The position numbers and the translations under genes are program-made. From contig SUTY01000008.1 in the NCBI GenBank assembly GCA_015152455.1, positions 1 to 35,240 of the forward strand: DNA of 35,240 nt. The letters run 5' to 3'. Shown in pieces: positions 12,105 through 24,498 of this stretch; position 1 is the stretch's first letter; each line of letters opens with the position of its first letter. Source of the stretch: Cyanobacteria bacterium SIG32 (GTDB taxonomy: Bacteria > Cyanobacteriota > Vampirovibrionia > Gastranaerophilales > Gastranaerophilaceae). The notes below the pieces were generated by a model. The model had not been told where the DNA came from and made no database searches. It was given only the letters and a program-made list of their open reading frames with translations.

Positions 12105-12167
12105 GGTGATCAAGGTTTTAGTGACCAAGTGATCAAAGTGATACATTTTAAGGTTGGAAGATCCAAC
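12105..12167 (+). repeat. GTGATCA-type short repeats and hairpin in pilin mRNA leader
   Basis: Three imperfect units around GTGATCAA, one within GTGACCAAGTGATCAA (12121-12136), which recurs inverted at 23758-23773 inside the coding start of another pseudopilin. A small hairpin GTTGGA-AGA-TCCAAC (12153-12167) follows, six bases before the Shine-Dalgarno of the short ORF. Confidence 0.65.
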
Positions 12168-12185
12168 AGAATAGGAGATCGTAGT

Positions 12186-12236
12186 ATGTTAAAAAGTGAA
12201 GCTATGACTGGCTTTAAGACCTTAGGGGGGGGGTAG
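12186..12236 (+). CDS. Short ORF ending in a G9 tract, candidate leader of the pseudopilin
   Basis: ATG at 12186 with AGGAG eight bases upstream encodes MLKSEAMTGFKTLGGG and stops at TAG directly after nine G (12225-12233). If one G is lost, or the ribosome shifts +1 on the G run, reading continues as GGGRNALLARLSDVLGL and joins the pseudopilin frame without a stop, giving a protein of about 364 residues. With nine G the two frames are separate. The promoter, ribosome binding site and lack of either at the downstream starts all suggest this is the real translation entry. Alternatives: a miscalled homopolymer or a decayed leader. Confidence 0.6.
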   Translation: MLKSEAMTGFKTLGGG

Positions 12237-12267
12237 AAACGCTCTCCTAGCAAGGCTTTCGGATGTT

Positions 12268-13281
12268 TTGGGATTATTCCCTCGCCCTATGGGAGAGGGT
12301 AAGGGTGAGGGGGCAGCATTTACTTTAGCTGAAGTCCTAATCACCTTGGCAATTATTGGCGTTGTTGCAGCAATGACAATTCCGACATTAGTTGCAAATT
12401 ATCAACAAAGATCTTGGGATACTGCATCAAGTGTTTTCAATAGAAGACTTGGTGAAGCATTGAAAATTATGAATGCTAATTCTAGTCTAGCAGGTTTTGA
12501 TTCTACTGCTGATTTTGTTGAAGAATTATCTAAACACATTAAAATAGTTAAAACATGTTCTAGTGATAAACTTACTGATTGTTTTACATCAGAAATTTTA
12601 ACTACTGCAGATCCTGTTGAAACAAGTAAGTTAAAAGCATCTAAAAATCTTTATTCAACAACAGACTATGGCACAGAAACAATTGGTGTAATGTTTGGTG
12701 ACGGAACATCTGCACTAATCGCTTACAATAAAAACGCAACAGAAGATCCATATTCAAACACAGTAGTAAGATTTTCAGGTGGACGTGATAGTGTAGCTAT
12801 GGGTACTGATGCAATATCTATTCTATATGATATTAACGGTCTAAAAACACCTAACCAAATGGATACAGGTAAGGATATAAGAGGATTAAATATTGCAATT
12901 AAAACTGGTGCTCCTTTCAAAAACCTTGGTAAAATATCAACACCAGTAGATTGTTCAACAACTGCTTCAACATCTACAGATGCAAAAATCAAAGCTGATT
13001 ATGACGCATATTGTGGACCAAATCCGTCAGGCTATTCATCTGACTACTGGGCAGGAGCTAAGAGAGCTTGCGTAGATGAAGGCATGCATTTACCAACACG
13101 ACAAGAACTCAAAGACCTCTATGCAAGAAAGGGTGAAGAAGGAATTCCAACTTCCGGCTGGTTCTGGTCTTCGTCAGAGGACAATATCTACCACGCGTGG
13201 GTACTCGACTTTGCCAGTGGGGAAGAGCCCATCAGCTACAAGGGCGACAACAACGATTACGTGTTGTGCTTAGGTAATTAA
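12268..13281 (+). CDS. Pseudopilin with DGR-target-like (DUF1566/Lcl) C-terminus
   Basis: The N-terminal class III signal and transmembrane helix read FTLAEVLITLAIIGVVAAM, as in type II/IV pseudopilins, so the protein should be processed and assembled or anchored outside the inner membrane. The C-terminal 90 residues (from about 248) match the DUF1566/Lcl C-type-lectin-like pattern: LPTRQELKDLY, then GWFWSSSED (W300-E304), AWVLDF, and a final VLCLGN. The last 34 codons are clearly richer in C-ending codons than the rest of the AT-rich gene, with 23 of 33 sense codons of NNC/NNT form, as expected of a retroelement-diversified variable region. The TTG start at 12268 and the ATG at 12289 both lack ribosome binding sites; entry by frameshift from 12186 is more likely. 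The bases 12279-12311 are a palindromic repeat coding MGEGKGEG. Confidence 0.85.
   Translation: MGLFPRPMGEGKGEGAAFTLAEVLITLAIIGVVAAMTIPTLVANYQQRSWDTASSVFNRRLGEALKIMNANSSLAGFDSTADFVEELSKHIKIVKTCSSDKLTDCFTSEILTTADPVETSKLKASKNLYSTTDYGTETIGVMFGDGTSALIAYNKNATEDPYSNTVVRFSGGRDSVAMGTDAISILYDINGLKTPNQMDTGKDIRGLNIAIKTGAPFKNLGKISTPVDCSTTASTSTDAKIKADYDAYCGPNPSGYSSDYWAGAKRACVDEGMHLPTRQELKDLYARKGEEGIPTSGWFWSSSEDNIYHAWVLDFASGEEPISYKGDNNDYVLCLGN
12279..12311. repeat. REP-like palindrome inside the pilin leader coding sequence
   Basis: CCCTCGCCCTATGGGAGAGGG is an imperfect palindrome followed by TAAGGGTGAGGG. Repeats of this look are common in intergenic regions of many genomes; here it lies in frame and encodes the part of the leader just before the FTLAEV signal. 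Confidence 0.6.
13180..13281 (+). other. Candidate DGR variable region (VR)
   Basis: The 3' end of the pseudopilin gene encodes DNIYHAWVLDF, then SGEEPISYKGDNNDY and VLCLGN. Codons such as GAC, ATC, TAC, CAC, GCC, CCC, AGC, GGC and AAC are what adenine-specific mutagenesis of AAC/AAT codons in a template repeat would give. The invariant scaffold residues (WSSSE before, AW and F within, VLC after) match DUF1566/Lcl domains used as DGR targets. No template repeat or reverse transcriptase is in this window. Confidence 0.6.
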
Positions 13282-13525: not shown

Positions 13526-15391
13526 ATGAAATGGGTTGTGTATATTATTTTAGTTTTGGTGATAGTTATGGGACTATTAAAGTCTTGTATTAATCGTGAT
13601 ATTCCAGAAACAACAAGTTTTCAAAACACAATTCAAACAACCAAAGAAATAATTTATCCTGAAGATCAAAAAACTATAACCATTGACGGTGTTGATTATT
13701 TGCAATCTCAAGCTCCTGTTGGCAATTTTGGAGGAGCATTAACATCTTCAACAATCGGAGAAGGTCCAAAAACATTTAATCCGTTTAATTCAAAAGATAA
13801 TATCTCAAGCATAATGTCAGAAATAATGTACGACGGTCTTTTGACAACTCACCCAATTTCAGGTCAACCAATTCCAAAACTTGCAAAATCTTTCACAATT
13901 TCTGACGACGGCAAAGACTACATAATTAATTTACGCAAAGGACTCAAATGGTCAGACGGTAAACCAATTACCGCAGATGACGTTGTTTTCACCTGGCGTG
14001 ACATAATTTTTGCTGGATTTGGAAATACTTCTACCAGAGATTCGATAATAATTGACGGCAAACTTCCTACAGTAGAAAAAATAGACAACTATACAGTAAA
14101 ATTCACAACCCCAAAACCTTACGCACCTTTCGTAAGAATGCTTTCTACTCCAATTGCACCTAAACATATTTTCATGCCTGCAGTTAAAAAAGGTACTGAA
14201 TATTTTGAAACTTTCCTGTCAACAAATACAAGACCTCGAGATTTTGTAATTTCAGGAGCTTTTAAACTCAAAGAATACGTGCCTGCACAACGTGTTGTTT
14301 ATGAACGAAACCCCAATTACTACATCATAAACAAAGATAACAAAAAATTGCCATACCTCGACAAACTTGTATATTTGATAGTTGGCGATTTGAATAATGA
14401 AGTCTTAAAATTTGAAGCGAAAGAAATTGACACAATCAGCCTACAAGGTTCTAAAGTCGCACGATACAAAGCAATGGAATCATATTCTGATTTTACAATA
14501 CATAATCTTGGCCCTGATACAGGAACAATGTACTTGGCTATGAATTTGAATAATCGCAAAAATGACAAAGGCGAATTTTATGTAAAACCTGAAAAACAAA
14601 TTTGGTTTCAAGATGTTAATTTCCGTCGTGCCGTTGATCTCGTGGTTGACAGAAAAAACATTGTTTTAAATATTGCAAACGGAATCGGCGCACCTTTATT
14701 TACTGCGGAAAGTCTAAACTCAATTTTCTTAAACAAAAATCTACAACCTTATGACAAAAACATAGACAAAGCCAAAGAACTTTTAAAACAATCAAACTTT
14801 TCTTGGGATAAAAACGGACAACTATATGACAAGTTTGGCAACCGCGTTGAATTCGATATGCTGACTAATGCTGGTAATACAGAGCGTGAGGCAATCGGAG
14901 TTATGGTGAAACAAGACTTAGAAGATTTGGGAATGAAAGTTAATTTCAAACCTATAGAATTCAATTCTCTTGTAAATAAACTTGTGAATACTCTTGATTG
15001 GGACATGGTGATAATGGGCTTTACAGGCTCTCCAATAGAACCAAATGGCGGTAAAAACGTTATGATGTCTGATGGAACTCTACACGTTTATAATATGAGA
15101 TTAGCTAAAGATAAAAATTCTCCTCGTTATAATTTTGAAAAACGTATTGACGAATTATTCACCAAAGGAGCCTTGGCTACTAAATTTGAAGACAGAAAAA
15201 AATATTATGACGAATATCAACAAATAATTTATGATGAAAAACCTTTTATTTACTTGTATGCACCAACAAGAATTATCGCAATTAGAAATAAATTCAAAAA
15301 CATATTTCCAACTTCCTTGGGTGGTGTAACATATAACATAGAAGAAATATTTATTGATAACGAAATTCAAAATGACAAGAGGTCAAAATAA
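13526..15391 (+). CDS. Peptide/oligopeptide ABC importer, substrate-binding protein (SBP_bac_5)
   Basis: Extracytoplasmic receptor of a Dpp/Opp-type importer, 621 residues. An N-terminal hydrophobic segment (VVYIILVLVIVMGLL) ends in KSC, an imperfect lipobox, so it may be a lipoprotein or stay anchored. Family hallmarks are ITISDDGKDYIINLRKGLKWSDGKP-like residues at about 115-150 (LRKGLKWSDGKPITADDVVF) and FRRAVDLVVDRKNI further on. It is the first gene before two permease genes, with no gap to the next (TAA followed by GTG). ATPase genes are not present and must be elsewhere. A promoter so near the ATG suggests leaderless translation. Confidence 0.92.
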   Translation: MKWVVYIILVLVIVMGLLKSCINRDIPETTSFQNTIQTTKEIIYPEDQKTITIDGVDYLQSQAPVGNFGGALTSSTIGEGPKTFNPFNSKDNISSIMSEIMYDGLLTTHPISGQPIPKLAKSFTISDDGKDYIINLRKGLKWSDGKPITADDVVFTWRDIIFAGFGNTSTRDSIIIDGKLPTVEKIDNYTVKFTTPKPYAPFVRMLSTPIAPKHIFMPAVKKGTEYFETFLSTNTRPRDFVISGAFKLKEYVPAQRVVYERNPNYYIINKDNKKLPYLDKLVYLIVGDLNNEVLKFEAKEIDTISLQGSKVARYKAMESYSDFTIHNLGPDTGTMYLAMNLNNRKNDKGEFYVKPEKQIWFQDVNFRRAVDLVVDRKNIVLNIANGIGAPLFTAESLNSIFLNKNLQPYDKNIDKAKELLKQSNFSWDKNGQLYDKFGNRVEFDMLTNAGNTEREAIGVMVKQDLEDLGMKVNFKPIEFNSLVNKLVNTLDWDMVIMGFTGSPIEPNGGKNVMMSDGTLHVYNMRLAKDKNSPRYNFEKRIDELFTKGALATKFEDRKKYYDEYQQIIYDEKPFIYLYAPTRIIAIRNKFKNIFPTSLGGVTYNIEEIFIDNEIQNDKRSK

Positions 15392-16363
15392 GTGGACATA
15401 CTAAAATACATACTGAAACGAATACTACAAACTATACCGCTACTTATCATAGTATCGTTAATTAGTTTTTTCATAATTCGACTTTCGCCTGTTGATCCTC
15501 TTGCAGAACTTAGATTAAATCCGTCAGTATCTCAAGAAACCTTAGAACGTGAAACACAAAGATTAGGATTAGATAAACCAATTATCGTACAATATGGCAA
15601 ATGGGCAAAATCATTTGTTAAGGGCGATTTAGGCATAACATCAAACGGCGAAAAGGTTAGTACCAAATTAAAAGAAAGAATTCCAAACACATTACTTTTA
15701 ACAACAATAGTAATCCTTTTAACCTGGCTTGTTGGTGTACCTCTGGGAATACTTGCCGCTTTAAAATGGAAAACTCCTACAGATAAAGTTTTAACCGTAT
15801 TAACAAGTATAGGCATGGCAATTCCTTCATTTTTCTTTGCGGTATTACTTTTGATTTTTGCCGTCAGGACTGGTTGGTTCCCTATAGGAGGTTTAACAAG
15901 TGCAAATTTTGCAGATATGGGATTTTTTGCCCAAGTTGCAGATATTGCTCATCACTTATTTTTGCCTGTAATTGTATTGTTCACAATTTCACTGGCTGGA
16001 CTTCAAAGACAAATGCGAGCAAATATGCTAGATGTATTAGATAGCGAATATGTAAAATTTGCAAGAGCCAAAGGTTTAAGTGAAGTTCAAGTTGTATATA
16101 AACACGCTTTGAGAAACGCAGTAAACCCTCTAATCACACTTTTGGGATTTGAATTTGCTGGGCTGTTAAGTGGTGCAGCTTTAACAGAATACGTATTCCA
16201 ATACCCTGGTTTGGGCAGATTAATTTTGGAGGCAGTATTAAAATCTGACATCAATTTAGTTATGGCATCTTTGATGATGGGTGCAATTATGCTTGTATTA
16301 GGCAACTTAATTGCAGATATTTTACTTATCATTACAGATCCAAGGATTAGGGTGAAAGCATGA
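15392..16363 (+). CDS. dppB: Peptide ABC importer permease (DppB-like)
   Basis: Inner-membrane permease, 323 residues with six predicted helices, beginning ILKRILQTIPLLIIVSLISF as typical DppB/OppB proteins do. The EAA loop that docks the ATPase is ARAKGLSEVQVVYKHALRNA near 225-245. It starts with GTG directly after the stop of the binding-protein gene, with GAGGT as ribosome binding site, and overlaps dppC by four bases (ATGA). Confidence 0.93.
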   Translation: MDILKYILKRILQTIPLLIIVSLISFFIIRLSPVDPLAELRLNPSVSQETLERETQRLGLDKPIIVQYGKWAKSFVKGDLGITSNGEKVSTKLKERIPNTLLLTTIVILLTWLVGVPLGILAALKWKTPTDKVLTVLTSIGMAIPSFFFAVLLLIFAVRTGWFPIGGLTSANFADMGFFAQVADIAHHLFLPVIVLFTISLAGLQRQMRANMLDVLDSEYVKFARAKGLSEVQVVYKHALRNAVNPLITLLGFEFAGLLSGAALTEYVFQYPGLGRLILEAVLKSDINLVMASLMMGAIMLVLGNLIADILLIITDPRIRVKA

Positions 16364-23339: not shown

Positions 23340-23414
23340 ATGCTTAAAACCCAAGTAAAAACTTCAATAACTTACTTACATACTAACTCCCTAACTTCAT
23401 TAGGGGGGGGGTAG
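23340..23414 (+). CDS. Second short ORF ending in a G9 tract
   Basis: ATG with AAGGA upstream encodes 24 residues, MLKTQVKTSITYLHTNSLTS then LGGG, and stops at TAG after nine G (23403-23411), like the ORF at 12186. A 25-nt block beginning TTAGGGGGGGGGTAGAAA is identical in both. With eight G the frame reads LGGGRNALVVWVLAV and stays open to the TAG at 23614-23616, through the first palindromic element, but does not reach the pseudopilin at 23737. It is either an independent leader unit or a copy cut off from its pilin by repeat insertion. Confidence 0.45.
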   Translation: MLKTQVKTSITYLHTNSLTSLGGG

Positions 23415-23464
23415 AAACGCTCTCGTAGTCTGGGTTTTGGCGGTTTGCACAAAATCATACCGTC

Positions 23465-23736: not shown

Positions 23737-24498
23737 ATGAAAAAAACTGTAAAAAACTTGATCACTTGGTCACCTAGTCACTTGATCACTTCCCCAAAAT
23801 CCGCTTTTACTTTGGCTGAAGTTCTAATCACCCTAGCAATTATTGGTGTCGTTGCGGCAATGACAATACCTACCTTGATAAGTAATTACAAAAAACAAGT
23901 TGTAGAAACAAAATTATCCAAATTCTACACCACAATGAATCAAGCTATTAGATTATCTGAAGTTGACAATGGTTCTATTTTGACCTGGAAAAGACTTGAA
24001 GTTGATGAAATCGTCGATAGTGAGGGAAACCAACAAAAAATAACAACAAATTCTCTAGAATGGTTTAACAAATACATTGCACCATATATAAAAATAGCAA
24101 AAGTCGAAGAAGTTGAAAACGACCGTGAGGGGAATATTTTGATTTATTTTCTTGATGGATCATTAGTAAGTATAGGAGCAAACAGTTGGTTATTCTATCC
24201 TGATGCAAAAGACTACAAGTCAAGTATTGGAACAGACGGATATGTAACAAGAGATACCGCAATATCTGGAAGTAAATATTTCACATTCCATTTTAACCCT
24301 CATAGTTCTTCACGCCACCATAAAGGAAAAGGGATGGAACCATATGGTGTTGGTTGCGACCTTTGTACCATAAAACATTTCAAAACTAGAGCTGACATTG
24401 GTTGCAGAAAAGATGCCACAAACGAAGCCGCATATTGTACAAAAGTCATCCAGTTAAACAACTGGAAAATTCCTAAGGATTATCCATTTGAATTTTAA
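23737..24498 (+). CDS. Pseudopilin with repeat-derived leader
   Basis: 253 residues. The N-terminal helix is FTLAEVLITLAIIGVVAAM, preceded by a 23-residue leader whose middle (LITWSPSHLITS) is encoded by GTGATCA-type repeats in inverse orientation. The residue before the cleavage site is Ala rather than the usual Gly. The globular part has a C-terminal cysteine-rich stretch, GVGCDLCTIKHF to CTKVIQLNNW, probably disulfide bonded. AAGGA lies eight bases before the ATG. Unlike the first pseudopilin it has no DUF1566-like tail. It probably belongs to a type II/IV-like secretion or pilus system encoded elsewhere. Confidence 0.88.
   Translation: MKKTVKNLITWSPSHLITSPKSAFTLAEVLITLAIIGVVAAMTIPTLISNYKKQVVETKLSKFYTTMNQAIRLSEVDNGSILTWKRLEVDEIVDSEGNQQKITTNSLEWFNKYIAPYIKIAKVEEVENDREGNILIYFLDGSLVSIGANSWLFYPDAKDYKSSIGTDGYVTRDTAISGSKYFTFHFNPHSSSRHHKGKGMEPYGVGCDLCTIKHFKTRADIGCRKDATNEAAYCTKVIQLNNWKIPKDYPFEF

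Follow-up and report, generated by a model that had tools for sequence, protein, structure and literature searches.

The question raised by this locus is whether a prepilin-type gene whose last codons resemble the variable region (VR) of a retroelement of the DGR type, with no reverse transcriptase (RT) nearby, is rewritten in trans by a distant element of the same genome, and with what consequence for the protein that it encodes. The gene lies in a window of 35,240 nucleotides, the whole stretch of DNA that was analysed, from the Gastranaerophilales genome SIG32.

A prepilin-type gene with a lectin-like tail

One open frame on the forward strand (12235-13281) encodes RNALLARLSDVLGLFPRPMGEGKGEGA-AFTLAEVLITLAIIG...VLCLGN, and within this single frame we recovered all of the motifs named by an earlier, sequence-only reading of the locus (FTLAEVLITL, LPTRQELKDLY, WSSSE, AWVLDF and VLCLGN). 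The assignment of the pilin reading frame, RNALLARLS...AFTLAEVLITL...VLCLGN, is supported by the sequence and by a match above the cut-off to the prepilin N-terminal cleavage/methylation domain TIGR02532 (19.4 bits, cut-off 16.3). The segment A|FTLAEVLITL meets our criterion for a type IV prepilin or pseudopilin, namely a class III leader with a hydrophobic helix and E at +5; the residue at -1 is Ala, not Gly, and the Phe at 12319 would be the first residue of the mature protein. Assembly of this protein into a pilus is inferred, the basis being its N-terminus together with four matches in the SIG32 genome to the assembly-ATPase family PF00437. Type IV pilus genes have been reported from a termite-gut Gastranaerophilus genome (PMC5877343).

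The C-terminal part of the frame forms a Lcl-like C-type-lectin domain (12940-13281, forward strand, the start being approximate). The sequence-only reading had described a DUF1566/Lcl-like tail and proposed checking it with an HMM, and the tail does match Pfam Lcl_C (formerly DUF1566) with an E value of 7e-05, although the score of 23.5 bits is under the curated cut-off of 34.9; Lcl_C is matched by 11 of 24 aligned pilins. An AlphaFold2 model built from these 24 pilins, which begins ten residues into the mature pilin, has a pLDDT of mostly about 90 or higher in the C-terminal domain. Its top match in the PDB is 8q4e, the C-terminal domain of Legionella Lcl (E 1.3e-4), followed by Bd2740 and then by C-type-lectin domains, and the comparison of this model with the PDB satisfies our criterion that a DGR target carry a C-terminal VR with a C-type-lectin fold. 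That the protein is a pilus tip with binding specificity, as had been proposed, may be inferred from the predicted fold and the family, and no binding has been shown.

The variable region among copies in the same genome

Full-length matches to the tail were found in the SIG32 genome on contigs C66, C29, C60, C91, C17, C69, C33 and C49, with a partial match on C25. On the sequence evidence the window gene belongs to a family of about nine scattered VR-bearing pilin copies, eight of them on other contigs, on which the sequence-only reading was silent. The C25 paralogue keeps the fold and was rejected as a DGR target because the codon pattern ending in C or T and the constant 3' end are both absent from it.

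The VR comprises the last ~34 codons of the window pilin, of which ~27 are variable. A constant 5' flank (GGC TGG TTC TGG TCT TCG TCA GAG, 13156-13179), identical or nearly identical in most of the copies in the genome, is followed by the hypervariable codons (13180-13260), which are recognised by the synonymous and nonsynonymous counts among paralogues and by variability at template adenines, and then by a constant 3' end, GTGTTGTGCTTAGGTAATTAA (13261-13281), which is conserved among copies, lies at the IMH-like end of the VR and contains the stop codon; all three are on the forward strand. The hypervariable terminus had earlier been placed at 13080-13281, and this range holds for 13180-13260 and not for 13080-13155, which is a conserved part of the domain; the read-mapping check proposed in the sequence-only reading already began at 13180. 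The codon count given in that reading holds exactly, with C or T as the third base of 23 of the final 33 sense codons. As for the switch to C-rich usage, 17 of these 33 codons have C in that position, compared with 34 of 318 elsewhere in the open frame.

The footprint of a DGR is observed directly when the paralogues are compared. Among the four closest copies (C36, C66, C29 and C60) the pairwise codon differences upstream of the VR are 281 synonymous to 141 nonsynonymous, and within the VR they are 1 synonymous to 112 nonsynonymous; these pairwise counts are not independent. Over the same boundary the divergence at third positions falls from 0.254 to 0.069, while that at first and second positions rises four- to fivefold (from 0.08 and 0.06 to 0.36 and 0.32). 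Because the predominance of synonymous differences gives way to an almost exclusively nonsynonymous pattern exactly at the VR, the C-rich hypervariable tail is more than a chance feature.

The fixed bases of the VR are those of an AAC/AAT-rich template with the landmarks GCG, TGG, TTT, GGG, GAG and AAG, and the same layout is found in a template repeat (TR), FWSSSENNTNNAWNVNFDNGNSNNNNKNNQNGVLCVGN, of G287, which belongs to another genus of the same family. With this TR as a stand-in template, the VR columns in SIG32 vary at 17 of the 21 template adenines, compared with 12 of the 51 remaining bases (Fisher p=1e-5), and some of the 12 are sites where the template of G287 and that of SIG32 must differ. 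Our criterion that differences in a DGR target be concentrated at template adenines is thereby met, through the stand-in here and by direct comparison of TR and VR in G287.

Ordinary paralogue divergence or gene conversion in a pilin family under diversifying selection, without any retroelement, has to be weighed at this point, since multi-copy pilins with near-identical 5' leaders do suggest frequent intragenomic recombination. Such processes, however, predict neither invariant third bases (C or T) beside variable first and second bases, nor variability confined to template-adenine positions, nor the occurrence in relatives of cassettes of RT, Avd and TR with the same pilin targets, and we regard them as a very improbable source of the pattern.

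Retroelement machinery elsewhere in the genome

The expectation of a DGR RT elsewhere in the genome, with none at the locus, was borne out, as a DGR-family RT on contig C80 and a fragment of Avd on contig C5 are both observed in the same genome. The C80 gene is one of two RVT_1 genes in SIG32, the other being on C9. Its frame is intact and contains the motifs YVDD and LPIGNLTSQ; it begins 15 bases past a lytic transglycosylase gene and has relBE-type genes on its other side. The encoded RT shares 49-64% identity with RTs of relatives, some of which adjoin TR/VR pairs, and the best PDB match of its family is 8ub7 ('Reverse transcriptase', E 1e-50), which we take to be the RT of the BPP-1 DGR. 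The criterion of a DGR-clade RT in the genome is met by this gene. Two other assignments of the C80 RT were rejected, that of a defence RT (many PADLOC defence-RT matches) and that of a group II maturase (NCBIfam matches under the cut-off), both being outweighed by the linked TR and Avd evidence in relatives.

The Avd fragment (C5:3-212, 69 aa) matches NF033474 (DivGenRetAVD) and Pfam bAvd, in both cases under the cut-offs, which is unsurprising in a truncated gene: contig C5 starts inside avd, so that just the C-terminal two thirds are visible. Neither a TR nor an Avd adjoins the C80 RT, and no TR/VR-like pair was detected on the C80 contig. The VR and an all-A inferred TR both served as queries for the TR, an IUPAC pattern was run with up to 3 mismatches tolerated, and the examined loci were scanned without gaps. 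No TR for the pilin VR was found in the ~90% complete assembly, so that the template-repeat criterion for a DGR is not met, and the near-copy that had been expected next to a DGR RT did not appear. Of the matches on C45 to the VR or the inferred TR, one was discarded as chance low-complexity similarity and the other proved to be a leader fused to a VR-like remnant. With 98 contigs, 90% completeness and 3.5% contamination, the assembly is a fragmented MAG, and linkage between contigs therefore depends on binning. Since C5 starts inside avd, and since a cassette in the related genome G005 has a TR-like stretch just upstream of avd, we infer that the missing TR may sit in the assembly gap beside avd, before C5. 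The sequence-only reading was to be given up if the complete genome contained no TR or DGR RT and there was no excess of nonsynonymous variation, and this did not come about.

A relic DGR would also leave VRs made by such an element, with the TR (and perhaps the full Avd) since lost, the pilins persisting as frozen variants and the orphan C80 RT as a leftover. The absence of the TR from the assembly, the isolation of the C80 RT between the transglycosylase and relBE-type genes, the Avd cut at a contig end and the Treponema denticola isolates that keep targets after loss of the core DGR (PMC4891356) are all compatible with such a loss; the intact frame of the C80 RT with both of its motifs is not what a leftover would suggest, the single synonymous against 112 nonsynonymous differences in the VR of the closest paralogues imply little decay since diversification, and the gap at the start of C5 coincides with the TR-like position relative to avd in the second cassette of G005. 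We therefore consider a relic unlikely, without setting it aside.

SIG32 contains a second DGR, on C9 (L017, G000:C9, around 15289-15598), which has its own TR/VR pair and a 245-aa target. This element could be thought to be the one that edits the pilins, its RT being linked to a TR/VR pair in which 9 of 9 mismatches, in a 70-base stretch, are on template adenines. The C9 TR, however, has no similarity to the pilin VR, and the C9 and C80 RTs share only 32% identity where they align, which leaves this possibility with almost no weight.

Relatives with the same reverse transcriptase family and kind of pilin

In relatives, TR/VR pairs are observed alongside RTs of the C80 family and pilins like that of the window. 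G005, of the same genus, has a complete cassette comprising pilin/Lcl target, avd, TR and RT, and a second cassette with a TR-like stretch followed by avd and a convergent RT. A single TR in G287 matches 11 pilin VRs, one neighbouring and ten remote, and across these 204 of 429 adenines are changed versus 33 of 825 other bases. TR/VR pairs were found in six of 33 RT loci of relatives that were scanned, with mismatches located at adenines in 15/15 (G005), 20/20 (G287), and 17/18, 13/15, 12/12 and 17/18 (four others). The layout of the locus L069 (1501-2973, G005:C8) is unusual for a DGR, with a TR-like stretch and avd on one strand, a converging RT on the other and overlapping 3' ends.

Of 382 genomes of the class, 38 encode an RT of the C80 family, and pilins of the window type (at E 1e-8) occur in 11 of 288 genomes of the family, most of these being multi-copy with up to 18 copies. 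Named records with related loci are mostly Candidatus Gastranaerophilales or unclassified rumen bacteria. No relative of the window tail was found on viral contigs (21 pattern matches, none related), and there is thus no sign that these pilins are phage-borne.

A model of editing in trans

The proposal of a DGR-type tail edited in trans is supported by the adenine-type variation among paralogues, by the C80 RT and the C5 Avd, and by TRs in relatives that feed similar pilins both locally and remotely. We consider it very probable that about nine dispersed DGR targets, the window gene among them and all of prepilin type with a Lcl-like VR tail, are served in trans by the C80 RT and the C5 Avd. 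Under this model each target would join a cleavable N-terminal pilin helix to a C-terminal Lcl-like C-type-lectin domain that carries the VR. The C80 RT, together with Avd, would copy the RNA of a shared TR with random errors at adenines, and this TR, itself only inferred, would match GGCTGGTTCTGGTCTTCGTCNGAG...GTGTTGTGC but carry A wherever the VR is variable. The mutagenised cDNA would then replace the VR of any target that retains the constant flanks and 3' end, and the targets would come to form a repertoire of pilins, or of minor pilins, that differ in their binding faces. As the cDNA could be written into any flank-matched pilin, each cell lineage would carry a pilin set with different lectin faces. 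A DGR footprint on scattered pilin tips, with the RT elsewhere, implies that the binding of the surface fibre is probably continually re-invented, although present activity is an inference made without strain-level data.

A repeated leader upstream of the pilins

The ~200 bases 5' of the pilin are a dispersed repeat (12153-12318), to which the sequence-only reading did not refer. A pattern search gave 43 copies of it in the SIG32 genome, and 15 other genomes of the genus had no copy. The repeat, on the forward strand, opens with a small hairpin, GTTGGAAGATCCAAC (12153-12167, identified from the sequence and strand folding), which is followed by a Shine-Dalgarno-like AGGAGA (12173-12178) and by a leader ORF, MLKSEAMTGFKTLGGG (12186-12236), that is recognised from the sequence and the leader copies. 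Of the 40 copies read, 32 retain AGGAGA upstream of the G tract; among the eight that do not, one is truncated at a contig end. The ORF has 16 codons, starts with ATG at 12186 and terminates in GGG-GGG-GGG-UAG, with a G9 tract at 12225-12233 and UAG at 12234-12236, and the pilin is one base out of its frame. In 16 of the 40 copies a pilin is fused after RNALLARLS, and all 16 share one (+1) frame despite five spacer lengths (10, 26, 28, 44 and 48 codons). The tract is exactly G9 in 16/16 of these fused copies, versus 16 with G9, 6 with G10 and 2 with G7 among the 24 that are not fused (Fisher p=0.013). The copies share descent, and the frame test is for this reason weaker than the counts imply. 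In the copy L111 the stretch from the stop codon to the pilin contains no ATG, GTG or TTG.

The arrangement suggests, from sequence features only, that expression of the pilin may need a +1 frameshift, slippage or phase variation. Fusion of leader and pilin would be achievable by a +1 shift (GGG to GGU), by a G8 transcript or by a G8 genome; alternatively, internal initiation at 12289 (ATG) or 12268 (TTG) may suffice for most copies. Diversity may even have two layers, in that a single DGR hypermutates the whole chromosomal pilin repertoire in trans while expression of the repertoire is gated through the 43-copy G9-UAG leader by +1 frameshift, polymerase slippage or change in tract length, an idea that we offer tentatively and do not favour. 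If true, it would describe a system of both sequence and expression diversity for surface fibres, and a genuine programmed frameshift or phase switch, shared by 16 or more pilins, would stand as a finding of its own on how a repertoire is expressed.

Three further observations concern the leader. A second G9-UAG element lies in the window at 23400-23420, ~320 bases upstream of a pilin-type gene (23737-24498, DUF6613 and N_methyl). At L011 (1501-1555, G000:C45:20747) the leader is joined directly to a degenerate Lcl/VR-like remnant and the G tract is replaced by GGAGGAGGA. The leader insert 'AFTLAEGATHVGNCANYRKS' repeats the pilin cleavage motif in several paralogues (the N-termini of L002 and L004, and L094-L097).

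Comparison with known systems

Gastranaerophilales are gut relatives of cyanobacteria whose surface biology is little known, and a pilin-type lectin array open to rewriting from a single template would provide them with antibody-like diversity in adhesion or recognition outside phages. Legionella Lcl is a collagen-like adhesin, and we know of no evidence that it is a DGR target. The C-terminal domain of this protein (PDB 8q4e) is the best structural match of the tail.

The TvpA family of Treponema denticola is a DGR system with dispersed targets, up to seven in number (PMC4891356). As is inferred for the pilin system, one TR and RT serve remote paralogous targets with a C-terminal VR; the TvpA targets are described as varying cell-surface receptors (PMC4891356), whereas those of SIG32 are of prepilin type and number about nine, and in SIG32, unlike in Treponema denticola, the RT, the Avd and the targets are all on separate contigs. 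The DGRs of cyanobacteria, a related phylum, also have remote CLec paralogues scattered over the genome, but their variable proteins are mostly predicted to be cytosolic and are tied to signalling or regulation (PMC7517822); neither pili nor Melainabacteria are mentioned in that paper. DUF1566 (Lcl_C) targets of DGRs have the same C-terminal fold family and in some cases putative pilin structures (PMC6642488), but the pilin-linked ones are mentioned there in passing, without dispersed prepilin arrays in Gastranaerophilales. There is no mention of pilin or pili in Roux 2021, and a search limited to open-licence papers found none on DGRs with Melainabacteria, Gastranaerophilales or pseudopilins. 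The mechanism of DGRs is already known, and it is the dispersed pilin arrays as their targets in Gastranaerophilales that appear to be new; what this locus would add to the known systems is a DGR in this order whose targets form a chromosomal array of prepilin genes, with the parts on separate contigs, and an odd leader.
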